This document shows positions 38,434 through 54,915 of a stretch of DNA of 64,000 bases, in pieces (within the stretch, counting starts at the first letter, position 1; every line of letters starts with the position of its first letter). The notes below the pieces were generated by a model. That model was not told the DNA's origin. It made no database searches and saw only the letters and a program-made list of their open reading frames with translations. The translations under genes were made by a program, and so were the position numbers. Source of the stretch: Kaistia sp. 32K. GTDB taxonomy: Bacteria; Pseudomonadota; Alphaproteobacteria; Rhizobiales; Kaistiaceae. The DNA lies in NCBI RefSeq assembly GCF_016629525.1, contig NZ_AP024269.1, positions 496,001-560,000 on the forward strand, given 5' to 3'.

Positions 38434-38665
38434 TGATGGGAACCTTGGGGCAATGCGGCCATTGGGCGGCCATCGAACGGTCAGCGTCGCCACTCCCGTT
38501 GCGGAATGCAATGCCGGAGGGCGCTACCGGGCGAATTGCACCCCAGCATTCGGTTCGCGAAGATAATTTCGCGCTTCCATTTGTCGTCCGGGATGCTCAT
38601 ATGCCAGGTAGAAGCGTGCCCAGTACAAGCGCGAACGCGTAGCCGTCAGATTGGAGGAGTGTCCT

Positions 38666-39637: not shown

Positions 39638-39658
39638 TCGATCCTTCGCTGAGACAAG

Positions 39659-39697
39659 AGGCCGGCCGCCCGATGGGTGGCCGGCCTTTTTTATTTT
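39659..39697 (+). terminator. Intrinsic terminator of transaldolase
   Basis: AGGCCGGCC pairs with GGCCGGCCT (39659-39667 and 39679-39687). An inner CCC/GGG extension adds to the stem, and TTTTTTATTTT follows. Confidence 0.92.
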
Positions 39698-39711
39698 GGG
39701 GTTGCCCGACC

Positions 39712-39847
39712 TTCCTTCACCTCTCCCATGGGGAGAGGTCGGCCCGCAGGGTCGGGTGAGGGGTTGTGACCTCACCGGAGAAGGCTGAACCCCTCACCCG
39801 CCGCACGTTGTGCGTCGACCTCTCCCCATGGGAGAGGTGAAGGGGGA
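39712..39847. repeat. Palindromic repeat, family C variant (CTCTCCCATGGGGAGAG)
   Basis: CACCTCTCCCATGGGGAGAGG opens the element and CCTCTCCCCATGGGAGAGGTG closes it, with GGTCGGGTGAGGGG and CCCCTCACCC pairing inside. The whole forms a long imperfect cruciform or RNA hairpin between the transaldolase and GntR gene ends. Confidence 0.85.
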
Positions 39848-39879
39848 CTGAGCAAATACCCGCGACGGGGAAACGCCCC

Positions 39880-40593
39880 CTACAGCCCGATCTCGACGCC
39901 CGTCGTCGGGGCCAGAAAACTCTGGATCTGGCGGACGATCTGCGCCGCGTGGTCGCGGCCGAGCGTCTCGGCGCGGTCGCGGTCGCCGGCGGCGATGGCG
40001 GCGATCAGCGCCTCGTGCTCGTCGACGAATTCCTGCGGCAGGTGGTCCTCGTAGGTGAGGTAATAGAGCCGGAGCAGCCGCGTGCCCTCGTTGAGCAGGC
40101 GGGCGAAGAGATCCGTGTAGTAGCGGTTGCCGCCGGCGATCGCGATGGCGAGGTGGAAGGCGCGGTTGGTCTCGATCATGCCGATGGCGTCGGAGGCGGA
40201 AACCGCCGCGACGAACTCGTTCTGGCAGGCCCTGAGCGCCGCGAGATCGGCATCGCTCCGCCGTTCCGCCGCCAGCCGCGCCGTCACCCGGTACATCAGC
40301 ATCAGCGCGTCGAGATAGTCCGGCAATCCGGCATAGTCGATGATCGAGACGATGGTGTTGCGGTTCGGCAGCGTCGTCGCCAGCCCCTCCGCCACCAGCT
40401 TCACCAGCGCCTCGCGCACCGGCGTCCGCGACAGGCCGAAGCGGGCCGAGAGGCCGACCTCGTCGAGCGGGTCGCCGGGGGCGAGCGCCATGTCGAGGAT
40501 ATCGCGCTTCAGCGCGTCATAGACGGCCGAGACGCCGAAGCCGCGCCGATGCGCCGTCTCGCCCGCCTCTTTCCGCTGCCCGTCCTTCGCCAC
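39880..40593 (-). CDS. GntR-family regulator with FCD domain
   Basis: A 237-residue transcription factor. The winged helix-turn-helix lies at about 20-85 (DEVGLSARFGLSRTPVREALVKLVAEGLA), and an all-helical FCD ligand domain with metal-binding histidines (FHLAIAIAGGNRYY, HEALIAAI) follows. It is divergent from a DapA-family gene and a proline-racemase-family gene. That is the arrangement of hydroxyproline regulators (HypR) in rhizobia, so it probably controls those genes through the TGTATACA/TGTACA sites between them. Confidence 0.83.
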   Translation of the reverse strand: MAKDGQRKEAGETAHRRGFGVSAVYDALKRDILDMALAPGDPLDEVGLSARFGLSRTPVREALVKLVAEGLATTLPNRNTIVSIIDYAGLPDYLDALMLMYRVTARLAAERRSDADLAALRACQNEFVAAVSASDAIGMIETNRAFHLAIAIAGGNRYYTDLFARLLNEGTRLLRLYYLTYEDHLPQEFVDEHEALIAAIAAGDRDRAETLGRDHAAQIVRQIQSFLAPTTGVEIGL

Positions 40594-40688
40594 CCGCCGT
40601 CCCCCTCGCTGTTCCCGACCTTATAGGGCCCACGTCACCAGCCTGTCGACGTCGACGGCACCCTTGCTTGCCGCTTCGTCGTGTCACG

Positions 40689-40705
40689 TGTATACAGATT
40701 GTACA
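40689..40705 (+). promoter_or_regulatory. Probable GntR/FCD operator
   Basis: TGTATACA (40689-40696) and TGTACA (40700-40705) are each perfect palindromes of the TGT-N-ACA type bound by FCD regulators. Together they make GTGTATACAGATTGTACAC, a near-symmetric site. They lie 31 nt before the ATG of the DapA-family gene, in the divergent promoter. Confidence 0.6.
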
Positions 40706-40736
40706 CATTTCGATCAGATCCGGACAGGAGGATGGA

Positions 40737-41669
40737 ATGGCGAGGCCGAAGGTGAACTGGGGCGGGGTCTTTCCCGCCGTGACGACGCAGCTCCGCGCCG
40801 ATTTCTCCGTCGATCTCGACGCCACCGCCCGGGTGATCGAGGCGCTGATCCGCGACGGCATTTCCGGCCTGGTGATGTGCGGCACGGTCGGCGAAAATCC
40901 GGCGCTCACCCGCTCGGAAAAGATCGCGCTGCTGGAAATGGCGAAGGCAACGGCGAGGGGGCGTGTCCCGGTCCTCTCCGGCGTTGCCGAATATACGAGC
41001 GCCTTCGGCTCGGACTATGCGCGCGAGGCGGCGCGGGCCGGCATCGACGGGCTGATGGTGATGCCGGCCATGGTCTATCCGGCCAAGCCCCGCGAGACGC
41101 GCGATCATTTTGCCACCATCGCGCGCGCGACCGACCTGCCGATCATGATCTACAACAACCCGCCCTCCTACCGGACTGACGTCACCCCGGCCATGCTGGC
41201 GGAGCTCGCCGATTACGAGACGATCGTCGCCTTCAAGGATTCCTCCGGCGATACGCGCCGCATCGTCGACGTCCGCAACATGACGGGCGATCGCTTCATC
41301 CCCTTCTGCGGCCTCGACGACGTCGTGCTCGAATGCGTCATGCTCGGCGCCGTCGGCTGGGTCTCCGGCATGTCCAACATCTTTCCGCGCGAGGGGGAGA
41401 CCCTGTTCCGGCTGGCGCGGGCCGGCCGATACCAGGAGGCGCTGGCGATTTACGACTGGTACATGCCGCTCCTGCATCTCGACGCCCGCGCCGATCTCGT
41501 CCAGGCGATCAAGCTCTGCGAGAAGATTGCCGGCCGGGGCACGGATCTCTGCCGCCCGCCGCGGCTGCCGCTCGACGCCGCCGAGACGGCCGAGATCGAG
41601 GCGATCATGCGACAGGCGCTGGCGACCCGCCCGAACCTTCCGGATGTGGGCTTGCCGCTGGCGGCCTGA
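40737..41669 (+). CDS. DapA-family aldolase/deaminase, likely hydroxyproline HypD-type
   Basis: A 310-residue TIM-barrel enzyme of the dihydrodipicolinate synthase family. The Schiff-base lysine is K167 (VAFKDSSGD) and the tyrosine is Y139 in IMIYNNPPSY. The family covers dapA, sialate lyases and, in rhizobia, the deaminase acting on pyrroline-4-hydroxy-2-carboxylate (HypD). Being next to a proline-racemase-family epimerase and a GntR/FCD regulator favours the HypD role over lysine synthesis; that is inference. ATG 40737 follows AGGAGGATGGA. Confidence 0.8.
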   Translation: MARPKVNWGGVFPAVTTQLRADFSVDLDATARVIEALIRDGISGLVMCGTVGENPALTRSEKIALLEMAKATARGRVPVLSGVAEYTSAFGSDYAREAARAGIDGLMVMPAMVYPAKPRETRDHFATIARATDLPIMIYNNPPSYRTDVTPAMLAELADYETIVAFKDSSGDTRRIVDVRNMTGDRFIPFCGLDDVVLECVMLGAVGWVSGMSNIFPREGETLFRLARAGRYQEALAIYDWYMPLLHLDARADLVQAIKLCEKIAGRGTDLCRPPRLPLDAAETAEIEAIMRQALATRPNLPDVGLPLAA

Positions 41670-41716
41670 CCATCCGATCATCGCGCAGCCAACGAGGCAG
41701 CAGGAGCATGGGAAGT

Positions 41717-42733
41717 ATGGCGCGGCACACCTTCGTCTGCATCGACGGCCACACCTGCGGCAATCCCGTCCGCGTCGTCACCGGCGGTTCGATCCCGGTG
41801 CTGAAGGGCGCGACCATGTTCGACAAGCGCCAGCATTTCCTGGTCGAGTTCGACTGGATTCGGAAGTCGCTCTGCTTCGAGCCGCGCGGCCACGACATGA
41901 TGTCCGGCTCGATCCTCTACCCGCCGTCGAGCGACGCCTACGACGTGGCGATCCTGTTCATCGAGACCTCGGGCTGCCTGCCGATGTGCGGCCATGGCAC
42001 GATCGGCACGGTGACGACGATCATCGAGCACGGCCTCGTCACGCCGAAGACGCCCGGCCTTCTGCGGCTGGAGACGCCGGCGGGCCTGGTCGAGGCGCGC
42101 TATGTCCAGAATGGGCCCTATGTCGACAGCGTCACGCTGACCAACGTGCCGTCCTTCCTGCTCGGGCGGGACTACGAGGTCGAGGTCGACGGCCTCGGCG
42201 CGCTCAAGGTCGACATCGCCTATGGCGGCAACTTCTATGCGATCGTCGAACCGCAGCCGAACTATTCGGATCTTTCGGACTTTGAGCCCTCCGACATCGT
42301 CCGCCTGTCGCCAAAACTGCGCGCCGCCTTCAACGCGCGGCACAGCATCGTGCATCCGGAAAACCCGGCGCTGGACCGGCTCACCCATGTGCTCTGGACC
42401 GGCCGGCCGAAGAATCCCGGCTCCTCTGCGCGCAACGCCGTCTTCTATGGCGACAAGGCGATCGACCGCTCGCCCTGCGGCACCGGCACCTCTGCCCGCC
42501 TCGCGCAACTCTTCGCCACCGGCCGGCTGAGCCAGGGTGACGCCTTCGTGCATGAGAGTATCATCGGCTCGACCTTCACCGGCCGCGTCGCCGGCACCAC
42601 CACGGTCGGCGGGCTGCCGGCGATCATCCCGACGATCGAGGGCTGGGCGCGGGTGACCGGCTACAACACCATCTTCGTCGACGATCGCGATCCGTTCTGG
42701 GCCGGTTTCCAGGTCGTCGACGGGGCCGGGTAG
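41717..42733 (+). CDS. Proline racemase family, probable 4-hydroxyproline 2-epimerase
   Basis: A 338-residue cofactor-free epimerase that would convert trans-4-hydroxy-L-proline to cis-4-hydroxy-D-proline. Both catalytic cysteines are present: C91 in LPMCGHGTIG and C254 in SPCGTGTSA. This argues against the dehydratase subgroup, where the second is threonine. The N terminus MARHTFVCIDGHTCGNPVR matches 4-hydroxyproline epimerases, hence ATG 41717 over ATG 41708. It is 47 nt downstream of the DapA-family gene. The D-hydroxyproline oxidase and the semialdehyde dehydrogenase are not in this window. Confidence 0.82.
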   Translation: MARHTFVCIDGHTCGNPVRVVTGGSIPVLKGATMFDKRQHFLVEFDWIRKSLCFEPRGHDMMSGSILYPPSSDAYDVAILFIETSGCLPMCGHGTIGTVTTIIEHGLVTPKTPGLLRLETPAGLVEARYVQNGPYVDSVTLTNVPSFLLGRDYEVEVDGLGALKVDIAYGGNFYAIVEPQPNYSDLSDFEPSDIVRLSPKLRAAFNARHSIVHPENPALDRLTHVLWTGRPKNPGSSARNAVFYGDKAIDRSPCGTGTSARLAQLFATGRLSQGDAFVHESIIGSTFTGRVAGTTTVGGLPAIIPTIEGWARVTGYNTIFVDDRDPFWAGFQVVDGAG

Positions 42734-42838
42734 GGGGCGACCCTGCCAAGAAGTGTGATGTCGGCTGCATCGGGATCGTAGCGGCGGTCGGTCGGCTCGG
42801 CTAAAACGGCTTAACCGCCGCCAATCTGGATTGCTGCC

Positions 42839-43870
42839 ATGCGTGCTCTCGTTCTCGAAGAAAAGCTCAAGCTCTCGCTGCGCGACATCGACCTGCCGCT
42901 CGAAGTCGGCCCGCGCGACGTCCGCATCGCCATCCACACGGTCGGCGTCTGCGGCTCGGACGTGCACTATTATACGCATGGCGCGATCGGCCCGTTCATC
43001 GTTAGGGAGCCGATGGTGCTCGGCCACGAGGCCGCCGGCACGGTCGTCGAGATCGGCTCCGAGGTGAAGAACCTCAAGGTAGGCGATCGCGTCTGCATGG
43101 AGCCGGGCGTCCCGGATCTGACCTCCAAGGCGTCGAAGCTCGGCATCTACAATGTCGATCCGAGCGTCACCTTCTGGGCGACGCCGCCGGTGCATGGCTG
43201 CCTGACGCCGGAAGTCGTCTTCCCGGCCGCCTTCACCTACAAGCTGCCCGACAATGTCTCCTTCGCGGAAGGCGCGCTGGTCGAGCCCTTCGCCATCGGC
43301 ATGCAGGCGGCGGCCAAGGCCAAGATCGTCCCCGGCGACACGGCGCTGGTGATCGGCGCCGGCCCGATCGGCATCATGGTGGCGCTGGCAGCGCTCGCCG
43401 GCGGCTGCAGCCGCGTCTACATCTCCGACCTCGTCAACGAGAAGCTCGCCATCGCCGGCCGCTATGACGGCGTCATCCCGGTCAACATCCGCGAGCAGGA
43501 CCTGAAGGCGAAGATCGCGGCCGAGACGGACAATTGGGGCGTCGACATCGTGTTCGAGGCCTCCGGTTCCCCGCGCGCCTATGACGGCATCTTCAATTAT
43601 GTCCGTCCCGGCGGCGCGATCGTCTTCGTCGGGCTGCCGGTCGAGCCGATCGCCCTCGACATCGTCTCGGCCTCGGCCAAGGAAGTGCGGATGGAGACGG
43701 TGTTCCGCTATGCCAATGTCTTCGATCGCGCGCTGGCGCTGATCGCGTCGGGCAAGGTCGACCTGAAGCCGCTGATCACCGGCACCTACGACTTCGAGGA
43801 GTCGATCGCCGCCTTCGAGCGCGCCGCCTCCGCCAACCCGAACGACGTCAAGCTGCAGATCACGCTCTGA
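42839..43870 (+). CDS. Zinc-dependent polyol (xylitol/sorbitol-type) dehydrogenase
   Basis: A 343-residue medium-chain dehydrogenase. The catalytic zinc ligands are the cysteine in [11 protein letters not shown] near 38, the histidine in LGHEAAG near 63 and a downstream Glu; the NAD site is [15 protein letters not shown] near 172-186. It resembles xylitol/sorbitol dehydrogenases, which oxidise the polyol to the ketose. The lobe that normally holds four structural-zinc cysteines (after EPGVP) has none here, so it binds one zinc per subunit. It is monocistronic, with a 105-bp gap upstream. Confidence 0.82.
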
Positions 43871-43956
43871 GGCTCTTCCTCTTCACCTCTCCCTCAGGGC
43901 GACCTTTGCGCAACACCGAAAGGTCGCCATGCAGCCCTCTGCCCATGGGCAGAGCA

Positions 43957-44069
43957 CCGTCGCCCCGGCGAAGGCCGGGGCCCATGAACACCGGCCAAGA
44001 AAGCTTGGTTGAGCCGATCGGCTACAGGCCTGTGTGTATGGATCCCGGCCTTCGCCGGGATGACGACGG
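43957..44069. repeat. Dispersed palindromic repeat, family A pair
   Basis: CCGTCGCCCCGGCGAAGGCCGGGGCCCATG opens the element and TATGGATCCCGGCCTTCGCCGGGATGACGACGG closes it; each unit is a hairpin and the two are inverted. A fragment of the CACCTCTCCCTCAGGG element lies just before it (about 43881-43900). They occupy most of the 299-bp gap between the dehydrogenase and the PRC-barrel gene; no gene was seen. Confidence 0.82.
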
Positions 44070-44618: not shown

Positions 44619-45071
44619 TCAGGCGCTCGCGGGCCTCCGCGCGACGAGATAGATGTGCTCGCAGGCGAGCACCGTCTCGCCGGTCTGCTTGGTGACGGTG
44701 ACGAGCTCGGCGACGATGCCGTGCGTGGCGCGCTTCGGGTGGTCGCGCTTGTCGACGATCTCAGCCTCGACCGTGATGGTGTCGTTGATGAAGACGGGCC
44801 TCACGAACCGCACCTTGTCATAGCCATAGGACATGGCGTGCGGATTGATCGTCGTCGCCGTCATGCCGACCGCCACCGACAGGATCAGCGTGCCATGGGC
44901 GACGCGTTGCTTGAAGTCCTGCGTCGCGCACCATTCGGCGTCCATGTGGTGCGGGAAGAAGTCGCCCGTCTGCCCGGCATGGATGACGATGTCGGCCTCG
45001 GTGATCGTGCGGCCCATCGTGCGGCGGGTGAAGCCGATCTCGTAGTCCTCGAAGAACTGCTCGACGATCAT
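44619..45071 (-). CDS. MaoC-like dehydratase/hydratase, copy 1
   Basis: A 150-residue hot-dog-fold protein of the MaoC (R-specific enoyl-CoA hydratase) family. The catalytic Asp/His region is [12 protein letters not shown] near 37-48, and [19 protein letters not shown] near 81-99 is a conserved strand. The same YGYDK(V/L)RF block occurs in the second MaoC gene at 51280, so the two are related. It is the promoter-distal gene of a minus-strand set with an SDR and an enolase-superfamily gene, separated from the SDR gene by a family A repeat. The CoA-ester substrate is unknown. Confidence 0.82.
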
Positions 45072-45120
45072 GGGGTCTGGTCCTTGGCAGCCGGCCGCAA
45101 TGTCGGCGCCGGAAAAGCTG

Positions 45121-45213
45121 CGTCATCCCGGCGAAGACCCGGGATCCATTCAGCCAAAGCGCTGAACGGCGAGGCTCGGGCTGCATGGATCCCCGCTTTC
45201 GCGGGGAAGACGG
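45121..45213. repeat. Dispersed palindromic repeat, family A pair
   Basis: CGTCATCCCGGCGAAGACCC then GGGATCCATTCAGCC, a variable middle, then CATGGATCCCCGC-TTTC-GCGGGGAAGACGG. It lies between two genes on the same strand (MaoC and SDR), so it may separate transcripts or process the message. Confidence 0.8.
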
Positions 45214-45305
45214 CGGGGGCAGGGATACCGCCTCCGCCGGTCGAAAGGTTGCCTCCTGCCGCCATCCGAGCTTGCCGGATGCGGGAGAGGGCAGGGCGAG
45301 GGGCC

Positions 45306-46040
45306 TTAGTTGACCCAGCCGCCGTCGATGATGTGCATCTGGCCGGTGGTGTAGGTCGCGGTCGCCAGGTAGATGGCGAGGTCGGCGATCTCTTCCGGCT
45401 GGCCGATGCGGCCGATCGGCTGGCGGGCGATGAAGGCGGCGCGGGCCGCTTCATAGTCGCCCTGGTCGCGCAGGCGCTGCTGCAGCGACGGGCTCTCGAC
45501 CGTGCCGGGGCAGATGCCGTTGCAGCGAATGCCCTTGGTGACGTAGTCGGCGGCGATCGACTTGGTGAGGCCGACGGTCGCTGCCTTGGTCACGGCATAG
45601 GCGAAGCGGTTCGGCACGCCCTTGATCGAGCCGGCGACGGAGCAGATGTTGACGATCGAGCCGTCCTTCTGCGCCAGCATGCCCGGAAGGGCGGCCGAGA
45701 TCGTCCGCCACATCGACTTGACGTTCAAGTCGTAGGCGAGGTCGAGATCGGCTTCGGTCGCCTCTTCCAACGTGCCGGCATGCACGATGCCGGCACAGTT
45801 GAACAGCACGTCGATGGTGCCGATCTCGGCGACGAGCGCCTTGACGTCGTCGTTCGACAGGACGTTGAGCTTGCGGGTGGTGATGTTCTTGACGCCGTCG
45901 AGCTCGGCGAGCTTCGCCTCGTTGACGTCGGTCGCCCAGACGATCGCGCCCTCGGCCGCCGCCTGCTCGGCGATCGCCCGTCCGATACCCTGCGCCGCCG
46001 CCGTGACCAGCGCGACCTTGCCTGCGAGCTTACCGCCCAT
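45306..46040 (-). CDS. SDR oxidoreductase, DHRS6/2-keto-3-deoxy-L-fuconate DH-like
   Basis: A 244-residue classical short-chain dehydrogenase. The NAD site is TAAAQGIGRAIAEQAA near 13-28, where the normally glycine-rich TGxxxGIG begins TAAAQGIG, as in the DHRS6 group. The active site holds NICSVAGS and YAVTK (YxxxK) near 148-152. This group includes 3-hydroxybutyrate dehydrogenases and 2-keto-3-deoxy-L-fuconate dehydrogenases. Neighbouring mutarotase, lactonase and sugar-acid dehydratase genes favour the latter. It follows the dehydratase gene by 54 nt. Confidence 0.8.
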   Translation of the reverse strand: MGGKLAGKVALVTAAAQGIGRAIAEQAAAEGAIVWATDVNEAKLAELDGVKNITTRKLNVLSNDDVKALVAEIGTIDVLFNCAGIVHAGTLEEATEADLDLAYDLNVKSMWRTISAALPGMLAQKDGSIVNICSVAGSIKGVPNRFAYAVTKAATVGLTKSIAADYVTKGIRCNGICPGTVESPSLQQRLRDQGDYEAARAAFIARQPIGRIGQPEEIADLAIYLATATYTTGQMHIIDGGWVN

Positions 46041-46094
46041 GTCGTCAGTCCCTTCCGTTCGCTGCCGGATCCGTCCGCGGATCCGGCCGATCGA

Positions 46095-47204
46095 TCAATT
46101 CCTGGTCAGGAACGCCGAGCCCTCGACCGTCTGACGGCCGATGGCGTCGAAATCCCACGAAATGCCAAGACCCGCCTCGGGGCTCGGAACGGCGTAGCCG
46201 TCGGCGATCGTCATACCCTTTGTCGTCAAGCTATCCAACTGGGGGATGTACTCGACCCAGCGTGCATTCGGCACGGCGGCGCAGAGGGCGACATGCAGTT
46301 CCATCAGGAAGTGCGGGCAGACGACGACGTTGAAGGTTTCGGCCAGGTGCGCGACCTTGAGCCAGGGCGTGATGCCGCCGATGCGGGCGACGTCGACCTG
46401 GACGACCGAGCAGGCGCGGCGCTGCAGGTAGTCGCGGAAATGCAGGCTCGAATAGAGGCTCTCGCCGACGGCGATCGGGATCGAGGTCGATTCGGATAGG
46501 CGGATATGGCCGTCGACGTCGTCGGCGGTCAGCGGCTCCTCGAGCCAGCCGATATCGGCCGCCTCGTAGTGGCGCGCGCGCCGGATCGCCTCGTCGACCG
46601 AGAAGGCCTGGTTGGCGTCGGTGAACAGCTCGAAGCCCGGGCCGACGGCCTCGCGCACGGCCTTGAGGCGGGCGGCGTCCTCGTGGATCGGCCGGCCGAC
46701 CTTCATCTTGGCGCCGCCGAAGCCGTTCTCCTTGGCGCGCAGCGTGTCCTCGACGATCGCCTCGGTCGGCAAATGCAGCCAGCCGCCCTCGGTGGTGTAG
46801 AGGCGGATCTTCTCCTGCGCGCCGCCGGCCAGGATATGCACCGGCAGGTTCGCCTTGCGCGCCTTCAGGTCCCAGAGCGCGGTGTCGATGGCCGCGAGCG
46901 CCAGCGAGGTGATGGCGCCGACCGAGGTCGCATGCGTCATGAACAGGAGGTCGCGCCAGATCTGCTCGATCATGCCGGCCTCGCGGCCGATCAGGGCCGG
47001 CGCCAGCGTCTTCTCGATCAGCGACATGATCGCCGGGCCGCCGGTGCCGATCGTGTAGCTGTAGCCAGTGCCGACGACGCCGTCGGAATCCGTGATGCGG
47101 ATGATCGGCGTCTCCTGGCTGACGAAGGACTGGATCGCATCGACCCGCTTCACCTTCGGCTTCAGGTCGACCATCAGGCCTTCGACACGTACGATTTTCG
47201 CCAT
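46095..47204 (-). CDS. Enolase-superfamily sugar-acid dehydratase (MR/MLE family)
   Basis: A 369-residue mandelate racemase/muconate-lactonizing-type enzyme that removes water from an aldonate to give a 2-keto-3-deoxy acid. The KxK motif is K166/K168 (GAKMKVGR), and the metal ligands fall in FTDANQAF, WLEEPL and AVGESL. The C-terminal half forms the barrel and the N-terminal 130 residues the capping domain. ATG 47204 has GAGGGAGAAA before it. Neighbouring genes suggest L-fuconate or L-rhamnonate as substrate, but an altered specificity is possible. Confidence 0.82.
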   Translation of the reverse strand: MAKIVRVEGLMVDLKPKVKRVDAIQSFVSQETPIIRITDSDGVVGTGYSYTIGTGGPAIMSLIEKTLAPALIGREAGMIEQIWRDLLFMTHATSVGAITSLALAAIDTALWDLKARKANLPVHILAGGAQEKIRLYTTEGGWLHLPTEAIVEDTLRAKENGFGGAKMKVGRPIHEDAARLKAVREAVGPGFELFTDANQAFSVDEAIRRARHYEAADIGWLEEPLTADDVDGHIRLSESTSIPIAVGESLYSSLHFRDYLQRRACSVVQVDVARIGGITPWLKVAHLAETFNVVVCPHFLMELHVALCAAVPNARWVEYIPQLDSLTTKGMTIADGYAVPSPEAGLGISWDFDAIGRQTVEGSAFLTRN

Positions 47205-47226
47205 TTTCTCCCTCGGGGCTCTCTGT

Positions 47227-47613
47227 TTAGACCAGCACGCTCTTCCCCGATGCCTTGTCGAAGACATGCAGGCGGGTGAGGTCGAGATTGAAGGTCATGC
47301 GCCCGCCGGGCTGGGCGGGGCGCGGGTTCAGTATCTTGCCCTGTACTTCCTTGCCGCCGAGCTGGGTGTAAAGCAAGGTCTCGGTGCCGGGCGGCTCCGG
47401 CAGGGTTACCGTGCGCTCGATCGCGGCGATCTCGTTGTCGCCGGTGAGGCCGTAGCCGGCCGGCGAGAACGCCTCGGCGCGGAAGCCGACGGGGATCGCC
47501 TGGCCGGGGAACTGGGTCCGATCGACAGCCTCTTCAGCGGAGGCGGCAGCTGTGGGTGCGCCAAGCGCCGCGCATGAATAAAGAGCGGCCTGAATGCCGC
47601 GCATGGAATTCAT
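47227..47613 (-). pseudogene. Remnant of a sugar ABC ATPase (TOBE domain) fused to a foreign start
   Basis: From about codon 40 to the stop the frame reads as the C-terminal TOBE region of a MalK/UgpC-type ATPase: GFRAEAFSP, TVTLPEPPGTETLLYTQLGG, then RMTFNLDLTRLHVFDKASGKSV. The ATPase core (Walker A, signature, Walker B) is absent. The first 38 codons from ATG 47613 match nothing, yet GGAGGAA lies at ribosome-site distance. This looks like an internal deletion that joined the promoter and start of one gene to the tail of an ATPase gene. It may still be transcribed ahead of the dehydratase gene. Confidence 0.72.
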
Positions 47614-47674
47614 GTGCCTGATTCCTCCCCGTGGACACCCGAACCGCGTCGGCTCAAGGGCGTCACATTCTCCA

Positions 47675-47706
47675 CCATTGAATGGAGCATTCGTATATAA
47701 GCGAAT
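47675..47706. promoter_or_regulatory. Probable IclR operator region
   Basis: CCATT-G-AATGG (47675-47685) is a perfect palindrome. ATTCG-N8-CGAAT (47689-47706), containing CGTATAT, follows it. The CGTATAT core recurs at 48624 before the lactonase gene, next to GAATG half-sites. Both lie in the two gaps flanking the iclR gene, so they are the best candidates for its binding sites. Confidence 0.5.
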
Positions 47707-47771
47707 TTGACTGGCGCGAGTCAATGTCTAACTTGTCATCGCCCGGAGACAGGGCCGGGGGGAGTCGCTCA

Positions 47772-48554
47772 ATGACGGAAGACGCAAATGACCGCTATCG
47801 GGCGCCCGCGCTCGACAAGGGGCTGGACATATTGGAGCTGCTCGCGGCGACCGACGAGAGCATGACGCAGGCGGAAATCGCCAAGGCGCTCAACCGCTCG
47901 CCGAACGAAATCTACCGCATGCTCGATCGCCTGGTGCGGCGCAGCTACGTCGCCCGCGTGCATGGCGACCGCTATGAACTGACGCTGCGGCTGTTCGCGC
48001 TGGCGCATCAGCACGCGCCCGTGCGCCGGCTCGTCAGCCAGGCGCTGCCGGTGATGCGGCAGTTCTCGCGCGATTCCGAACAGGCCTGCCATCTCGCCGT
48101 CTACGACCGCGGCCGGATCGTCGTCGTCGCCCAGATGGATGCGCCAAGCTATTGGAGTTATTCAATTCGCGTCGGCGCGCGGGTCAGTCTCTACAACACG
48201 GGCTCGGGCCATGTGCTGCTCGCCTTCGCCTCGCCGGAAGAGCGCGTGATGATGGAGGCCGAGCGCGAGGAGCAGGACGAGGATAAGCTGCGTCCGGATA
48301 ATCTCGATGAGCGGCTGACCCAGATCCGCCGCCGCGGCTATGAATCGACGCCGAGCGCCCAGTCGCAGTCGGTCTACAATCTGTCGGTCCCGGTGCTGGG
48401 CGCCAACGACACCGCGCTCGCCGCGCTGACCTGCCCCTTCCTGCCGCGCATCGACCGCCCCAACGTCCCCGACCTGCAGGAGGCGCTGGCGATCCTGATC
48501 GCCGCCAGCCAGGAGCTCTCGCATGTCGTCGGGCGCGGCGGCGCGGAGGACTGA
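47772..48554 (+). CDS. IclR-family transcriptional regulator
   Basis: A 260-residue regulator. The N-terminal winged helix (KGLDILELLAATDESMTQAEIAKALNRSPNEIYRMLDRLVRRSYV, about 17-61) precedes a GAF-like effector domain with the family C-terminal features. It sits between the minus-strand sugar-acid genes and the plus-strand lactonase gene, so it probably senses a sugar or sugar acid and controls both arms. ATG 47772 has GGGAG upstream; starts at 47682 and 47724 are longer and lie in the operator area. Confidence 0.85.
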   Translation: MTEDANDRYRAPALDKGLDILELLAATDESMTQAEIAKALNRSPNEIYRMLDRLVRRSYVARVHGDRYELTLRLFALAHQHAPVRRLVSQALPVMRQFSRDSEQACHLAVYDRGRIVVVAQMDAPSYWSYSIRVGARVSLYNTGSGHVLLAFASPEERVMMEAEREEQDEDKLRPDNLDERLTQIRRRGYESTPSAQSQSVYNLSVPVLGANDTALAALTCPFLPRIDRPNVPDLQEALAILIAASQELSHVVGRGGAED

Positions 48555-48675
48555 GCGTCGCGCCGGCGGCGACCGGAGGCGTGCCCGCCCTTGCCAGCTG
48601 TCGGCTACTGTGAATGATACCCCCGTATATGAATGAGTTTCGGCCGTGCAACCCGGCCTGAGGGAGAGAGACGTC

Positions 48676-49506
48676 ATGCGGATGATCGATACCCACCTGC
48701 ACCTGGTCTACCAGGAGCGGTTTTCCTACCCCTGGCTCGCGGATGCGCCGGCGCTCAACCGCAACTTCACCCTCGACGACTACCTGCCGCAGGCGAAGGC
48801 CGCCGGCATCACCGACATGATCCACATGGAGGTCGACGTCGCCGAGAAGGACATCGAGGCGGAGACGGCCTTTGTCACCGGCCTCGGTCACGGCATCCTC
48901 GGCGCCATCGCCGCCTGCCGGCCGGAGAGCGCTGATTTCGCGGCCCAGCTTGAGCGCCTCGCCGCCAACCCGAAGGTCAAGGGACTGCGCCGCATCCTGC
49001 ATCAGTCGCCGGACGAGCTCGGCCAGCGGCCGATCTTCGCCGAGAACATCAAGCGGCTCGCGGCGCACAAACTGACCTATGATTTCTGCGTGCTGCCGCA
49101 CCAGATCCCGATCGCCATCGCGATCGCCAAGGCGGCGCCGGACGTCCAGTTCGTCATCGACCATTGCGGCGTGCCCAACATCAAGGACAAGGCGTTCGAG
49201 CCCTGGCGCGCCAACATGACGGCGATCGCCGAGGTGCCGAACGTCGTCGCCAAGATCTCCGGCGTCATCGCCTATGGCGATCCCGTCAACTGGACGGTCG
49301 ACGACCTCCGCCCCTTCGTCGAGCACACGATCGGCGCCTTCGGCTGGGACCGCGTCGTCTGGGGTTCGGACTGGCCGGTCTGCACGCTGACGGCCGACCT
49401 CGGCCGCTGGGTCGCGGCGACGCACGAGATCATCCGGGGCGCCAGCGACGACGAGAAGGCGAAGCTGCTGCACCGCAACGCCGAGCGTGTCTATCGGCTG
49501 GACTAG
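48676..49506 (+). CDS. Amidohydrolase-family sugar lactonase (COG3618 type)
   Basis: A 276-residue TIM-barrel hydrolase of the family that includes L-fucono-1,5-lactonase and L-rhamnono-lactonase. The N-terminal metal motif is DTHLHL near residue 5, DHCGVPN near 163 and the aspartate in WGSDWPV near 234. It would open the aldonolactone formed by the sugar dehydrogenase. ATG 48676 follows GGGAGAGAG. It is the first gene after iclR in the plus arm; a long inverted repeat separates it from the mutarotase gene. Confidence 0.83.
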   Translation: MRMIDTHLHLVYQERFSYPWLADAPALNRNFTLDDYLPQAKAAGITDMIHMEVDVAEKDIEAETAFVTGLGHGILGAIAACRPESADFAAQLERLAANPKVKGLRRILHQSPDELGQRPIFAENIKRLAAHKLTYDFCVLPHQIPIAIAIAKAAPDVQFVIDHCGVPNIKDKAFEPWRANMTAIAEVPNVVAKISGVIAYGDPVNWTVDDLRPFVEHTIGAFGWDRVVWGSDWPVCTLTADLGRWVAATHEIIRGASDDEKAKLLHRNAERVYRLD

Positions 49507-49525
49507 TCGCTTTCAGGCCTTGTGT

Positions 49526-49648
49526 GTGCTTCGAGACGGCCCTGCGGGCCTCCTCAGCATGTTGAGTTTGGGGGAGACCTTCTCCGGTAGGTTAGGCCTT
49601 GTTCCCCAACATGCTGAGGAGCCCGCGTGAGCGGGCGTCTCGAAGCAC
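49526..49648. repeat. Two inverted family B half-elements forming a long hairpin
   Basis: GTGCTTCGAGACG (49526-49538) and TCCTCAGCATGTTG (49551-49564) pair with CAACATGCTGAGGA (49607-49620) and CGTCTCGAAGCAC (49636-49648). That is 27 perfect base pairs around a bulge with small internal stems. Unlike the other copies, it lies inside a probable operon. Confidence 0.88.
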
Positions 49649-49686
49649 GCACGACCAAACGATCCAAACTGAACGGGAGGAACGCC

Positions 49687-50016
49687 ATGCAGCGCATGGG
49701 ATCTGTCATCGGGCTGAAGCCGGCCGACATCGCCGAATACAAGCGCCTGCACGCGGCCGTCTGGCCGGGCGTGCTGGCCAAGATCGCCGACTGCAACATC
49801 AGGAACTACTCGATCTTCCTGAAGGAGCCGGAAAACCTGCTCTTCGCCTATTTCGAGTATCACGGCACCGATTTCGCCGCTGACAGCGCCAAGATGGCCG
49901 AGGACAAGACCACGCAGGAATGGTGGGCCATCTGCGGCCCGATGCAGCAGCCGCTGGAAAGCCGCAAGGAAGGCGAATGGTGGGCGGAGATGGAAGAGGT
50001 TTTCCATACCGACTGA
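49687..50016 (+). CDS. L-rhamnose/L-fucose mutarotase (RhaM/DUF718 family)
   Basis: A 109-residue ferredoxin-like-fold enzyme that interconverts sugar anomers before oxidation. The conserved features are the N-terminal RMGSVIGLKPADIAEYKRLHAAVWPGVL, with the catalytic histidine near 24, and the C-terminal EWWAICGPMQQPL and WWAEMEEVFH. ATG 49687 follows GGGAGGAACGCC. It lies between the lactonase and Gfo/Idh genes, the expected first step of the pathway. Whether it acts on fucose, rhamnose or another deoxy sugar is not decided. Confidence 0.84.
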   Translation: MQRMGSVIGLKPADIAEYKRLHAAVWPGVLAKIADCNIRNYSIFLKEPENLLFAYFEYHGTDFAADSAKMAEDKTTQEWWAICGPMQQPLESRKEGEWWAEMEEVFHTD

Positions 50017-50033
50017 GGGCTCGCCTCGATTTG

Positions 50034-50061
50034 TCCTCTCTCCCGCGAACGGGAGAGGGGG
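50034..50061. repeat. Single CTCTCCCGC hairpin (family C half unit)
   Basis: CCTCTCTCCCGCGAACGGGAGAGGGG folds into a hairpin between the mutarotase and Gfo/Idh genes. It matches one half of the longer family C elements at 26477 and 61260. Confidence 0.75.
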
Positions 50062-50094
50062 CAACCCTTCCCGCCGCCCGGAAATGAGATTGCC

Positions 50095-51174
50095 ATGATG
50101 TCCTTCGACCCCGCGACGCTCGCCCAGAGCTGGCCGCAGCCGACCGCGCCGCGCCCGATCGTCATCATCGGCGCCGGCGGCATCGTCAATGACGCCCATC
50201 TGCCGGCCTATGCGCTGTCGGGCTTTCCGGTCGCCGGCATCTTCGATCGCGACGTCGGCCGCGCCAAGGCGCTGGCCGAACAATGGAGCGTGCCGTTCTT
50301 CCGCACGATGGACCAGGCGGTCGCCGTGCGCGACGGCGTGTTCGACCTCGCGACGCCGCCCGCAGCCCATCTCGAAATCCTGCGCCGCCTGCCCAAGGGC
50401 GCCACCGTGCTGATCCAGAAGCCGATGGGGCGCGACCTCGACGAGGCGACGGCGATCCTGAAGCTCTGTCGCGAGCGCCAGTTCACGGCGGCCGTCAATT
50501 TCCAGCTGCGCTTCTCGCCGATGATGCTGGCGGTCCGCGACGCCTTGCAGAAGGGCCTGCTCGGCAGGCTGATCGACGTCGAGATGCATCTGAACCTCGT
50601 CACGCCCTGGCACCTGTTCCCGTTCCTGAAGGGGATGTCGCGGGTCGAGATCGCGGTGCATTCGATCCACTATCTCGACCTGATCCGTGGCCTTCTCGGC
50701 AATCCGACCGGCATTCACGCGCGCACCCTCGGCCATCCCGGCAACGAGCTGGCGCAGACGCGCACCTCGGCGCTGCTCGATTTCGGGCGGGATGTCCGCT
50801 GCACGCTGTCGATCAACCACGACCATGATTTCGGCCGGAAATTCCAGGACGCGACCTTCCGCTTCGAGGGTGACCAGGGCGCGGCCTCGGTCAAGCTCGG
50901 CCTGCTCCTGAACTATCCGGCCGGCGAACCGGACGAGCTCTGGATCACGGCTTCGCGGGGCGCGGATGCCGCGTGGCAGCAGGTTCCGCTCATTGGCGGC
51001 TGGTTCCCGCATGCCTTTATCGGGGTGATGTCGAACCTGCAGCGCACCGCCGCCGGCGAGGACGACGCGCTCGTCACCTCGGTCGAGGATGCCTGGCACA
51101 CCATGGCGCTGGTCGAGGCGGCCTTCCGGTCGGCCGCAGCGCCGGCGACCCCGGTGCCGCAACAGCCGGACTAG
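50095..51174 (+). CDS. Gfo/Idh/MocA-family sugar dehydrogenase
   Basis: A 359-residue NAD(P)-dependent oxidoreductase. The Rossmann motif VIIGAGGIVNDAHLPAY is near 22-38, the conserved EKP position reads IQKPMG near 106, and the substrate domain carries AVHSIHYLDLIRGLLG with the catalytic-type histidine. In this setting the likely reaction is oxidation of the free sugar to the aldonolactone. It is 78 nt downstream of the mutarotase gene. ATG 50095 and ATG 50098 are equally good. Confidence 0.8.
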   Translation: MMSFDPATLAQSWPQPTAPRPIVIIGAGGIVNDAHLPAYALSGFPVAGIFDRDVGRAKALAEQWSVPFFRTMDQAVAVRDGVFDLATPPAAHLEILRRLPKGATVLIQKPMGRDLDEATAILKLCRERQFTAAVNFQLRFSPMMLAVRDALQKGLLGRLIDVEMHLNLVTPWHLFPFLKGMSRVEIAVHSIHYLDLIRGLLGNPTGIHARTLGHPGNELAQTRTSALLDFGRDVRCTLSINHDHDFGRKFQDATFRFEGDQGAASVKLGLLLNYPAGEPDELWITASRGADAAWQQVPLIGGWFPHAFIGVMSNLQRTAAGEDDALVTSVEDAWHTMALVEAAFRSAAAPATPVPQQPD

Positions 51175-51219
51175 AGGCTTCTCGATTCAATCAAAATACA
51201 TCAATCCATCGCATTTCGC

Positions 51220-51279
51220 TGCAAACAATTTGCACATGAGCGAATGATTGATCTATGAATGGCTCAGGGAGGAAGAGCC
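51220..51279 (+). promoter_or_regulatory. Promoter and palindrome of the MaoC-CaiB operon
   Basis: TGCAAA-CAA-TTTGCA (51220-51234) is a perfect 6-bp inverted repeat. It sits inside a larger CATTTCGCT/AGCGAATG inverted pair. TTGCAC (51230) and TATGAA (51254) are plausible -35 and -10 boxes, so a repressor at the palindrome would block the promoter. The AGCGAATG half resembles the IclR-region sites. Confidence 0.5.
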
Positions 51280-51837
51280 ATGACCGAGCCATTCGCGCCG
51301 ACCGTGGGCGTCGCGTCGACCCATCCAAAGGACATGCCGAAAGAGCATTCCGACCTGCCGGTCTGGAACGCCGAAAACTGGCTGTATGAGGATTGGCCCG
51401 TCGGCCAGAAGATCCGCTCGCTCCGCCGCACCCTCGGCGAGGGTGAATCCCATCTCTTCAACACGCTCGTCACCGACATCCATCCCTATGTGCAGGACAA
51501 GATGTTCGCGGAGACGGAAGGCGTGTTCGGCCGCCGCCTCGTCGCCGGCGCCTTCGTCTTCTCGGCCGGCCTCGGCCTCGTCGCGACCAACTGCGTCAAC
51601 GCCTTTTCCTACGGCTATGACAAGCTGCGCTTCATCAAGCCGGTCTTCATCGGCGACACGATCTACACGATCCGGACCAATCTCGATAAGCGACCGAAAT
51701 ACAAGGAAATGGGCCTGATCCGCGCTTCCTACGAAGTGTACAAGGGCGAGGGCGAGCTGGTGCTCTATTGCGAGCATCTGCAGACGGTCCGATACCGCGA
51801 CGCCGGCGCTTTCGCCGATCAGGTCGAGAAGAAATAG
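51280..51837 (+). CDS. MaoC-like dehydratase/hydratase, copy 2
   Basis: A 185-residue MaoC-family protein. The hot-dog core spans about 30-180, with [16 protein letters not shown] at the start, a [19 protein letters not shown] helix and [21 protein letters not shown] as the conserved strand shared with the first MaoC copy. A 30-residue N-terminal lead is not found in copy 1. The central acid/base residues differ from copy 1: no DFFPHH motif is visible here, so it may be a thioesterase-like or non-hydratase variant. ATG 51280 follows GGGAGGAAGAG. The CaiB gene begins 18 nt later. Confidence 0.78.
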
Positions 51838-51855
51838 GCGAAGAATAGGCCAACA

Positions 51856-53010
51856 ATGTCCCAGTCCGATCTGCCGCTCGACGGCCTGCTCGTCGTCGAT
51901 CTGAGCCAGTTCCTGTCCGGCCCCTATTGCGCGCTGCGGCTGCGCGATCTCGGCGCCCGCGTCATCAAGATCGAGCGGCCGGACGGCGGCGATCTCTGCC
52001 GTCGCCTCTATCTGACCGATACCGAGATCGGCGGGGATTCGACGCTCTTCCATGCGATCAACCGCAACAAGGAGAGCTTCGCCGTCGACATGAAGAACCC
52101 GGTCGAGCTCGAGAGCCTGAAGATGCTGCTCGCCAAGGCCGACGTCGTGATGCAGAACTTCCGCCCCGGCGTGATCGACCGTCTCGGCCTCGGCTACGAG
52201 GCGGTGAAGGCGATCAATCCGGACGTCGTCTATGGCTCGATCACCGGCTATGGCGACGAGGGGCCGTGGGTGACGCGACCGGGCCAGGACCTGCTGGCGC
52301 AGGCGCGCTCCGGCGTCACCTGGCTGAACGGCGACGAAGGGCAGGGGCCGGTGCCGTTCGGCCTCGCCATCGCCGACATGCTGGCGGGCGCGGCGCTCTG
52401 CCAGGGCCTCCTCGCGGCGCTGGTGAAGCGTGGCATCTCGGGGCGAGGCTCGCATGTCGAGACCAGCCTGATCGAGGCGCTGATCGACTTTCAGTTCGAG
52501 GTGCTGACGACGCATCTGAACGATGGCGGCCGCAAGCCGACGCGCTCAAACTTCCGCAGCGCCCACGCCTATCTCTCCGCGCCCTACGGCATCTATCCGA
52601 CGAAGGACGGCTTCCTCGCCGTCGCCATGATGCCGGTGCCGAAGCTCGGCGAGCTGCTCGGCATGCCGGAGCTCGAGCCCTATCGCGAGGCGCCGAGCTG
52701 GTTTTCCGAGCGCGACGCCATCAAGCGCCTGATCGCCGCGAAGCTCGCCACGCAGACGACGGACCACTGGCTGTCGATCCTGGAGCCGGCCGACGTCTGG
52801 TGCGCCAAGGTGCTGGAATGGCCGGAGCTCCTGAAGAGCGAGGGCTTTACCGCGCTCGACATGCTGCAGACGGTCGAGCGGGCCGACAACGTCCGCGTTG
52901 TCACCACGCGCTCGCCGATCCGCGTCGACGGCAAGCGCCCGGTCAGCGCGGTCGCAGCCCCTCGCATCGGTGAACACACCGACGCGATCCGGGCCGAATT
53001 CGGGCTTTGA
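51856..53010 (+). CDS. Family III CoA transferase (CaiB/BaiF)
   Basis: A 384-residue CoA transferase that moves CoA between carboxylic acids. It has the LLVVDLSQFLSGPYCALRLRDLGARVIKIERPDGGD start, a conserved aspartate in the family position (SYGD-like region near 170, here GLAIADMLAGA), and VYGSITGYGDEGPW. The acyl acceptor is unknown. It lies in an operon with the MaoC gene, which points to activation and hydration of an organic acid. Confidence 0.85.
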   Translation: MSQSDLPLDGLLVVDLSQFLSGPYCALRLRDLGARVIKIERPDGGDLCRRLYLTDTEIGGDSTLFHAINRNKESFAVDMKNPVELESLKMLLAKADVVMQNFRPGVIDRLGLGYEAVKAINPDVVYGSITGYGDEGPWVTRPGQDLLAQARSGVTWLNGDEGQGPVPFGLAIADMLAGAALCQGLLAALVKRGISGRGSHVETSLIEALIDFQFEVLTTHLNDGGRKPTRSNFRSAHAYLSAPYGIYPTKDGFLAVAMMPVPKLGELLGMPELEPYREAPSWFSERDAIKRLIAAKLATQTTDHWLSILEPADVWCAKVLEWPELLKSEGFTALDMLQTVERADNVRVVTTRSPIRVDGKRPVSAVAAPRIGEHTDAIRAEFGL

Positions 53011-53081
53011 GAGAAGCTTGAGGAGGCTGGCCTCTTCACCCCTCCCGCAGGAAGATCTTTGCGCATCCGTCCTGCGGGGTT

Positions 53082-53218
53082 CGATTTCCATCATCCTGAG
53101 GTGCCCGAGCGCAGCTCGGGCCTCGAAGGACGCACGGTCTCGGGGCCACCGATCGATGGCACAGCCGCCCTGCGTGCTTCGAGACGGCCCTTCGGGCCCC
53201 TCAGCATGATGAGGGCGG
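53082..53218. repeat. Dispersed palindromic repeat, family B
   Basis: The same architecture as the 35835 copy: CGATTTCCATCATCCTGAGG, CCCGAGCGCAGCTCGGG hairpin, CGAAGGACGCACGGTC, variable middle, CTGCGTGCTTCGAGACGGCCC, TCAGCATGATGAGG. It separates the CaiB gene from the binding-protein gene, so the latter may have its own promoter in 53219-53316. Confidence 0.83.
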
Positions 53219-53316
53219 TGTTCTGCAGAGGCCTCCTCAGGAAGAGGGGAGGCGACCCGTATTCATTGTCATTCAGGATGCCGCCCGACGCGGATCCTGT
53301 CCGAGGGGGAGAGATC

Positions 53317-54456
53317 TTGAGCAAGTCCATCACGCTGAAGGGCATGACGTGGAGCCATCCGCGCGGCTACGACCCGGTCGTCGCCTGCGCGGAGCTCTAT
53401 CGACACGAGACCGGCGTCACCGTCGAATGGGACAAGCGCTCGCTGCAGGATTTCGAGAGCTTCCCGGTGGAGGAGCTGGCGCGCGCCTATGATTTGATCG
53501 TCATCGATCACCCGCATGTCGGCCAGATCACGAAAGAAGGCTGCCTGGCGCCGCTCGACGTCGCCGGCCGCGAGGCCGAGCGCGAGGCGCTTTCCGCCGG
53601 CTCCGTCGGCGCCTCCTACGAGAGCTACACCTGGCAGGGCCACCAGTGGGCTTTTCCCATCGACGCGGCGACGCCGGTGCTCGCCTATCGGCCGGACTTG
53701 ATCGCGACGCCGCCGACGAGCTGGGACGAGGTGCTCGCGCTTGGGCAGGGCCGGGCGCTGGTGCCGTTCCGCGCGCCGCATTCGCTGATGAGCCTCTATT
53801 CGCTCGCCGCCAATCTCGGCAGCCCCTGCGACGTCAGCGGCGACGGCGATCTGATCGATCCGGCCGTCGGCGTTCGCGTCTATGATCTTCTGGCGAAACT
53901 CGCCGCGAACGGCATGGCCGATTTCGACAGCGATCCGATCCAGGTTTTCGAGACGCTGGCGGCGGAGGGCTCTGATATCGCCGTCGCGCCGCTGCTCTAC
54001 GGCTATGTCAGCTACGCGACCGACGGCTTCCGGCCGCACCGTCTCGCCTTCGCCGACATGCCCGTGCTGGGCACCGCCGGCCCGGTCGGCTCGGCGCTCG
54101 GCGGCACCGGCATCGCCGTCTCGGCGTATTCGCAAAACCGCGACGCGGCGATCGACTTCGCCTACTGGCTCGCCAGCGCCGACGTGCAGCGCGGCCCCTA
54201 TGCCGCGAATGGCGGCCAGCCCGGCCACGCGACGGCGTGGGAAGATCCTGAAGTCAACGCGCCGACGCACGGCTTCTACGAGAACACGCGGGCGACGCTG
54301 GAAGGCGCCTGGGTCCGCCCCCGCCACAATGGCTACATGGCGTTCCAGGACGCCGCGTCGAAGCGCATCAACGCGGCGCTTCAGGCCGGCGAGCCGGGCG
54401 AGGCGCTGGTCGCCGAGCTGAACCGCCTGTTCCGCGACAGTTTCGCCGAGGCGTGA
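53317..54456 (+). CDS. Solute-binding-protein homologue without signal peptide
   Basis: A 379-residue protein of the extracellular solute-binding (COG1653-type) fold: ITLKGMTWSHPRGYDPVVACAELY at the start, YDLIVIDHPHVG near 65 and GFYENTRATLEGAWVRPRHNGYMAFQDAAS near the end. The best start is TTG 53317 with GGGGGAGAG upstream. No hydrophobic export signal precedes the mature-like N terminus, and the open frame upstream is repeat DNA. It would therefore stay in the cytosol. No permease or ATPase genes adjoin it. Its neighbours are CoA-transferase and MaoC genes. Confidence 0.72.
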   Translation: MSKSITLKGMTWSHPRGYDPVVACAELYRHETGVTVEWDKRSLQDFESFPVEELARAYDLIVIDHPHVGQITKEGCLAPLDVAGREAEREALSAGSVGASYESYTWQGHQWAFPIDAATPVLAYRPDLIATPPTSWDEVLALGQGRALVPFRAPHSLMSLYSLAANLGSPCDVSGDGDLIDPAVGVRVYDLLAKLAANGMADFDSDPIQVFETLAAEGSDIAVAPLLYGYVSYATDGFRPHRLAFADMPVLGTAGPVGSALGGTGIAVSAYSQNRDAAIDFAYWLASADVQRGPYAANGGQPGHATAWEDPEVNAPTHGFYENTRATLEGAWVRPRHNGYMAFQDAASKRINAALQAGEPGEALVAELNRLFRDSFAEA

Positions 54457-54473
54457 GGGGGGACGGCCCCTCG

Positions 54474-54915
54474 CCGTCATCCCTGCGAAGGCGGGGATCC
54501 ATGCAGCCGCGCCGCTGGCCGTTCGAACCTCCCGAGGCTTCGGCTGAATGGATCCCGGCTCGGGGGCCGGGATGACGGGAGGGTGGGGCGAGGCTGTGCG
54601 TTTCTGTCGACGCGAAGGTAGAGACGCCGTGGGGCTGTTGCGCATGCCGCATCGGCTGCGCCCGGCCTTCCTCCTATCTCCGGTATCCTTGCCTCTGTCG
54701 TCCTTCTGCCTCAGCTATCCTTCTTCCTCCGCCGTCCTGCCTCCGCCGTCATCCCACCCTCGCCGTCATCCCTGCGAAAGCAGGGATCCATACAGCCGAA
54801 GCCTCGGGCGCTTCGCGCGTCTGGCAACCCGGCTGAATGGATCCCGGCTCGGAGGCCGGGATGACGGCGAGGTTGGGGCGAAGCTGTGCGTGCCAGTCGA
54901 CGCCAGGGTAGAGAC
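54474..54915. repeat. Tandem pair of about 150-bp direct repeats built on family A
   Basis: Copy 1 begins at 54474 and copy 2 at 54763. Each holds a family A pair (CCGTCATCCCTGCGAA, GGGATCCAT, then GGCTGAATGGATCCCGGCTCGG, GCCGGGATGACGG) plus an identical-order tail ending in GTCGACGC, AGGGTAGAGACGC or AAGGTAGAGACGC. They are separated by a CT-rich spacer (54626-54762). The tail extends beyond the palindromes, so the duplicated unit is longer than the hairpins. With the following 54916-55177 leader, this 721-bp gap holds no gene I can support. Confidence 0.78.

Follow-up and report, generated by a model that had tools for sequence, protein, structure and literature searches.

A stretch of 64,000 nucleotides of Kaistia sp. 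32K (hereafter the window; contig NZ_AP024269.1, positions 496,001 to 560,000) carries at 44619-54456 a gene cluster that is read here, with a probability of roughly one half, as an oxidative, non-phosphorylative L-fucose-type cluster joined to a second co-regulated unit, which would serve a branch handling a sugar or sugar acid as its coenzyme A (CoA) ester. The unit comprises (i) a Gfo/Idh dehydrogenase, (ii) the hydratase-family protein MaoC1, with or without its relative MaoC2, (iii) a CaiB-type CoA-transferase, and (iv) cSBP, a signal-less protein with the fold of a sugar-binding protein. Gene comparisons show the unit to be conserved, linked to the sugar genes, placed behind a common operator-like site in many relatives and present as a block in another phylum; the enzyme activities are predicted.

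The linkage was surveyed by an MR/MLE-anchored scan with one genome per species, whose best 80 loci were reduced to 51 of at least 20.9 kb and then to 34 with at least two of RhaM, lactonase and ABC binding protein; 46 of the 80 loci were dropped before the linkage count, and related species among the surveyed loci are not independent. Gfo/Idh occurs in 29/34 of the counted loci. In these 29, CaiB and cSBP are both located in the locus in 24 and both outside it in five, whose genomes carry cSBP elsewhere (CaiB was not searched for there), and MaoC1 is found in the locus in 27/29, with L054 and L068 displaying a MaoC1-like match near the locus end. The 5/34 loci without Gfo/Idh contain an aldo-keto reductase (AKR; at least 49% identity to one of three cluster AKR queries) and no CoA genes. 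Across the 80 loci, AKR is found in 12 and Gfo/Idh in 33, the two together in none. That Gfo/Idh-type genomes are free of any AKR was considered and rejected, because 12/15 of them carry an AKR homologue elsewhere (best 45-55%); the exclusion therefore applies within loci, not genomes.

Ten genomes with the core sugar genes and no Gfo/Idh in the locus (nine with AKR, plus L079) were searched whole, and at the limits used eight lack cSBP and nine lack both MaoC1 and MaoC2; the genome of L071 has the CoA block elsewhere, and that of L130 a 38% cSBP paralogue. Two Devosia genomes, L057 (G679:C2:59412-62678, away from the L057 locus) and L068 (G678:C46:213801-217081), hold MaoC2, cSBP and a MaoC1-like gene in one row, with space for CaiB between MaoC2 and cSBP. 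In S. medicae, CaiB and cSBP precede the lactonase by ~10 kb; in S. meliloti pSymB MaoC1, Gfo/Idh, CaiB and cSBP are arranged around the common sugar genes. A chance neighbourhood is rejected by the survey counts, the linkage being well beyond chance, and the gene-neighbourhood survey, which an earlier note on this DNA had proposed, places the MaoC, CaiB and binding-protein genes with the sugar genes. Within clusters, the presence of the CoA block depends on which sugar dehydrogenase is encoded, Gfo/Idh accompanying it and AKR never doing so, and this points to the upper pathway or a parallel branch, and not to the last step.

A common operator-like site provides a second line of evidence. A motif search over 32 upstream regions of the ABC operon, tested against dinucleotide shuffles and control upstream regions, disclosed a palindrome of the form CATTCATATATGAATG / TGTTTGTATATGAATG, absent there in 2/32 (L080 and L114). 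The site precedes the first gene of the CoA operon in 15/27 loci, compared with 5/93 control upstream regions. Of the 12 loci without it, eight show MaoC2 and CaiB transcribed downstream of IclR and the lactonase, in three more the CoA genes follow IclR within a run that includes RhaM and Gfo/Idh, and the twelfth, L106, shows a borderline site score (0.065). Five additional plasmid loci include four with the site, which is absent before MaoC2 of S. medicae. The site is probably bound by IclR; the partner regulator varies among loci, being either IclR or LacI.

The block extends well beyond this type of cluster. Across 398 genomes of the phylum, a profile search disclosed 23 cSBP places in 18 genomes, with CaiB adjacent or within 0.9 kb in 20 places and ~6.5 kb off in three, and with MaoC or crotonase in 23/23 of the stretches read, five of which span just ~4 kb. 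The Kaistia genome itself contains four PF02515 genes, two of which adjoin a cSBP; the second cSBP-CaiB pair (L046 4816-11713, C1) is accompanied by a crotonase, an SDR (short-chain dehydrogenase/reductase) and an ABC ATPase, and is headed by an unusual regulator in which a DeoR helix-turn-helix, a periplasmic-binding domain and a DeoR sensor domain are fused. S. meliloti LMB1 groups Gfo/Idh, a TIM-barrel isomerase-like protein, DUF4432, SDR, CaiB, cSBP, crotonase and a sugar ABC transporter. L189 (8266-16102) combines parts of different module types: its cSBP is of the window type (65%) and has a MaoC1 (66%) nearby, but it stands beside a crotonase and a CaiB that belongs to the other type (82-83% to that of S. 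meliloti LMB1). In Croceibacterium, a similar set adjoins an alpha-L-fucosidase gene. A Streptomyces plasmid displays CaiB, cSBP and crotonase with FAH-like and SDR-like proteins; the FAH-like protein receives no family from Pfam at 1e-5 or from NCBIfam, and its relative in L179 has 120 listed homologues, every one of them with PF01557.

In Bacteroidota, plasmids of Rufibacter and Persicobacter carry cSBP, two CaiB proteins, a second signal-less SBP-family protein, Gfo/Idh and MaoC in one run, flanked at one end by a RhaT-type transporter; IclR adjoins the block in Persicobacter and is located ~8 kb away in Rufibacter. Compared with the window, the Rufibacter proteins reach 61% for MaoC (to MaoC1), 53-54% for the CaiB proteins, 45% for Gfo/Idh and 41% for cSBP. 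The Rufibacter and Persicobacter stretches read contain no lactonase or FAH match or annotation, and no match to the cluster SDR or MR/MLE protein; the Rufibacter block has glycan-degrading genes and esterases for neighbours. At L139 11667-12794 and L142 5423-6610 the CoA block includes such a second SBP-family protein lacking a signal, Bacteroidota and Sphingomonadales versions being 46% identical.

The two MaoC proteins of the window differ at the active site. MaoC1 preserves D-x-x-P-x-H, the active-site motif of MaoC-type (R)-hydratases, in 54/54 distinct relatives, and its S. meliloti 1021 orthologue is identical over 147 residues to a protein of solved structure, 4ffu, deposited merely as 'oxidase'. 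In MaoC2, D-x-H-P-Y-V replaces this motif in 29/29 distinct relatives covering the site (8/37 are cut short), and MaoC2 would be an altered, perhaps non-catalytic partner. The block YGYDK(V/L)RF, which the earlier note had seen in both proteins, is indeed common to them, at a mutual identity of 35-37%. MaoC2 is present in 20/29 Gfo/Idh-type genomes, 15 times in the locus and five times elsewhere; an obligate MaoC1-MaoC2 pair is rejected by its absence from the other nine. CaiB conserves D174, which we take to be the catalytic Asp of family III CoA-transferases, in 12/12 sequences, and its nearest curated models (NCBIfam) are glutarate, mesaconate and oxalate CoA-transferases, every score lying under the cut-off. 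CaiB proteins acting with a CaiD or MaoC hydratase are known from carnitine, mesaconate or itaconate metabolism, and in the carnitine case the CaiB-hydratase pair operates with CoA recycling.

cSBP shares its fold type with the binding proteins of sugar ABC transporters, and belongs to a family of which 3445 homologues were scored and which is annotated as 'extracellular solute-binding protein'. The mature-domain motif starts at residue 5-10 in 112 of the 120 homologues listed, at residue 15, 16 and 36 in three, and was not found in five. From this position of the motif the reading as a signal-less SBP-family protein, made in the earlier note, is upheld, and cSBP seems to lack an export signal and to stay in the cytosol. 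The CaiB and cSBP frames overlap by 4 bases in 6/8 loci.

The assignment of the sugar comes from the SDR, whose nearest solved relatives are 8Y11, 8XWK and 8Y4J, the L-2-keto-3-deoxyfuconate (L-KDF) 4-dehydrogenase of Herbaspirillum huttiense, followed by DHRS6; the DHRS6 likeness noticed earlier stands, in second place. An L-fucose-type sugar is thus a good guess, not proof. The top NCBIfam model of the lactonase is L-fucono-1,5-lactonase, yet at 121.5 bits against a cut-off of 400, and no solved structure matches it at E 1e-20. The MR/MLE protein of the window has as nearest solved relatives 3,6-anhydro-L-galactonate cycloisomerase and L-talarate/galactarate dehydratase, and falls in a different subgroup from L-fuconate dehydratase, an enzyme encoded outside the window at C1:3626570 (80% identical to that of relatives). 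In Gfo/Idh, Q108-K109-P110 and H192 are invariant in 6/6 relatives, Bacteroidota included. Transposon-fitness data from S. meliloti reportedly tie the orthologous cluster to L-fucose. Some fucose-type clusters (L114 11444-14734, L080, L091 and L071) lack L-fuconate dehydratase; in its stead they carry a second MR/MLE and genes classed by eye as UxaA-like and RraA-like, a set that looks like a replacement of the dehydratase.

According to the proposal, Gfo/Idh would act as the sugar 1-dehydrogenase, CaiB would load CoA onto a sugar acid of the route, and MaoC1 would remove or add water on the resulting ester, as CaiB/CaiD do on carnitine, before CaiB passes the CoA on to the next molecule; cSBP, probably partnering CaiB, would bind the sugar or sugar acid inside the cytosol. 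Aldonate dehydration, beside the enolase-type dehydratases, is the most economical place for the CoA step, although this placement is itself rather doubtful: a thioester on C1 of the aldonate would render C2-H acidic and allow loss of the 3-OH, the overall outcome being that of an enolase-type aldonate dehydratase. Cleavage of the diketo acid formed by the SDR would be left to a conventional FAH hydrolase, whose gene lies elsewhere in the genome. The association of cSBP with CaiB and a hydratase, or its position beside acid-sugar dehydratases, fits this mechanism weakly. A wider generalization, less likely than not, takes cSBP for no transport protein at all, but for a cytosolic SBP-fold enzyme subunit or substrate carrier dedicated to CoA-transferases. 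Together with CaiB and MaoC or crotonase it would define a widespread, undescribed sugar catabolism that dehydrates or epimerises sugar acids as CoA thioesters and extends over Pseudomonadota, Bacteroidota and Actinomycetota.

Several observations weigh against the CoA-ester branch. The clusters retain enolase-type dehydratases and FAH, so that the CoA step is unneeded on paper, and we know of no CaiB acting on sugar acids. MaoC2 is missing from 9/29 genomes, and in the window the operator-like site was not found before MR/MLE, RhaM, MaoC1 or IclR, while CaiB and cSBP are separated by ~0.3 kb and do not overlap. A fucose-type ABC binding protein was looked for in this genome without success (best match 27%). 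Outside the phylum sample, four cSBP places have no CaiB in view; these adjoin MR/MLE or mannonate-dehydratase genes, and two of the contigs are short. Finally, the Bacteroidota operon without sugar-acid enzymes fits a separate substrate as well.

This last point leads to the strongest rival, somewhat unlikely in itself, according to which the CoA unit handles a different acid that arrives with the sugar (from glycans rich in fucose or rhamnose this could be an acyl group or a modified deoxy-sugar) and runs parallel to the fucose pathway under the same regulator, with no intermediates in common. The Rufibacter and Persicobacter blocks lacking lactonase, SDR and FAH matches, the glycan-degrading, esterase and alpha-L-fucosidase neighbours in Rufibacter and Croceibacterium, and the coexistence of FAH and L-fuconate dehydratase with the CoA block all favor it; however, an independent branch leaves unexplained why the block tracks the sugar dehydrogenase type within clusters, and Gfo/Idh belongs to the block in both phyla. 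An improbable reading considers cSBP as a sensor of sugar in the cytosol, adjusting the activity of the regulator or of the CoA enzymes, with MaoC2 as a pseudo-enzyme subunit and the CoA chemistry minor; the fold of cSBP, the altered site of MaoC2 and the cSBP places without CaiB are consistent with it, whereas the overlap of the CaiB and cSBP frames argues against it, and the swaps between IclR and LacI are unexpected for a dedicated co-sensor.

The earlier note had favored yet another view, that the CoA genes replace the diketo-acid hydrolase and the last cleavage runs through a CoA ester, the window having neither hydrolase nor aldolase. The first of these absences holds for the one FAH query used, taken from a relative, which matches four places in this genome and none in the window. 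The second was too strongly put: a DHDPS-family gene (40737-41669), a candidate aldolase by its family, and a transaldolase-family gene (38651-39637) are located just upstream of the cluster, the window genes having been scanned in part for this question; proline-racemase-family and zinc alcohol dehydrogenase genes lie in the same region (38651-43870). Two of the four FAH homologues reach 68% and 64%; the former has L-2,4-diketo-3-deoxyrhamnonate hydrolase as closest solved relative, and the SDR encoded beside it shares 62% identity with its counterpart in the Pararhizobium cluster. Among relatives, FAH is encoded together with the CoA genes in annotated clusters of S. medicae, Labrenzia, Pararhizobium, Qingshengfaniella and Ponticoccus, and in the first three L-fuconate dehydratase also adjoins the common genes; the Thalassospira stretch has no FAH among its annotated genes. 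Although FAH is missing from the window and from 14/29 Gfo/Idh-type loci (10 kb flanks can miss it), its presence inside the other 15/29 and in these annotated clusters, together with the homologues elsewhere in this genome, means that the last step does not require the CoA genes and makes their role as a hydrolase substitute very unlikely.

An open reading frame (ORF) listing and family scans recover all the genes that the earlier note had named in the cluster, each where it had been placed (Table 1). The start of MaoC2 at 51280 is probable, and was picked by comparison with relatives. Dispersed intergenic repeats occur on both sides of the cluster (window 43951-44065, 45136-45219 and 54468-54877), some as inverted pairs of 25-70 nt with 80-92% complementarity, and a promoter and terminator scan gave scores no better than shuffles.

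Table 1. Genes and operator-like sites of the cluster, in window coordinates.
Feature	Position	Strand	Support
MaoC1, hot-dog (R)-hydratase family	44619-45071	-	PF01575; motif DFFPHH
SDR, likely L-2-keto-3-deoxyfuconate 4-dehydrogenase	45306-46040	-	best solved matches 8Y11/8XWK/8Y4J, then DHRS6
MR/MLE enolase-superfamily protein, acid-sugar dehydratase or cycloisomerase type	46095-47204	-	PF13378, PF02746
IclR-family regulator	47682-48554	+	PF01614, PF09339
Operator-like site CCCCCGTATATGAATG, 5' of lactonase	48620-48635	.	shuffle fraction 0.002 of 500
COG3618-type amidohydrolase, likely fucono-lactonase	48676-49506	+	PF04909; NCBIfam top model under cut-off
RhaM-type mutarotase	49687-50016	+	PF05336, E 6e-34
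Gfo/Idh/MocA dehydrogenase, putative sugar 1-dehydrogenase	50095-51174	+	PF01408
Operator-like site GATTGATCTATGAATG, 5' of MaoC2	51246-51261	.	shuffle fraction 0.002 of 500; 0/500 with start 51280
MaoC2, MaoC family without the usual catalytic His	51280-51837 (ORF from 51259)	+	PF01575
CaiB-type family III CoA-transferase	51856-53010	+	PF02515, E 9e-96
cSBP, signal-less sugar-binding-protein-fold protein	53317-54456	+	SBP family; TTG start by homology

CoA thioesters are no part of textbook sugar breakdown. If the proposal is true, a block of CoA-transferase, hydratase and cytosolic sugar-binding-fold protein adds new chemistry to carbohydrate catabolism, a large family labelled 'extracellular solute-binding protein' gains a role, and the solved structure 4ffu a function. 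No description of the CoA block, or of a CoA-ester step in such a pathway, was found in the open-licence PMC texts searched (including passages of PMC11378808 and PMC11199699); the excerpts of PMC10444878 contain neither CaiB nor MaoC, and those of PMC5395668 concern CaiB paralogues. The statement of the earlier note that such a variant was not known to be described agrees with this search, absence being unproven; the parts are of known families, in a combination undescribed in the literature searched.

The window cluster resembles the CaiB/CaiD-type systems in that a family III CoA-transferase, with its invariant Asp preserved, is encoded with an enoyl-CoA hydratase, but differs in that CaiB is set in a sugar operon and paired with a signal-less SBP-fold protein. 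cSBP is just 12-20% identical to the listed chains of sugar ABC binding proteins (TMBP, LpqY, SmoF), and, unlike these, appears to lack a signal peptide and is encoded with a CoA-transferase. Compared with route 3 of the non-phosphorylating L-fucose pathway, comprising FucM, FucA, FucB, FucC, FucF and FucG as given in the excerpted text of PMC11199699, the window has in common the RhaM-type mutarotase, the COG3618 lactonase and the L-KDF dehydrogenase-like SDR; L-fuconate dehydratase and FAH homologues are further common features, encoded elsewhere in this genome. On the other hand, where route 3 as excerpted there uses an SDR or AKR dehydrogenase the window cluster has Gfo/Idh in its place, and the published scheme has no slot for MaoC1, MaoC2, CaiB and cSBP.

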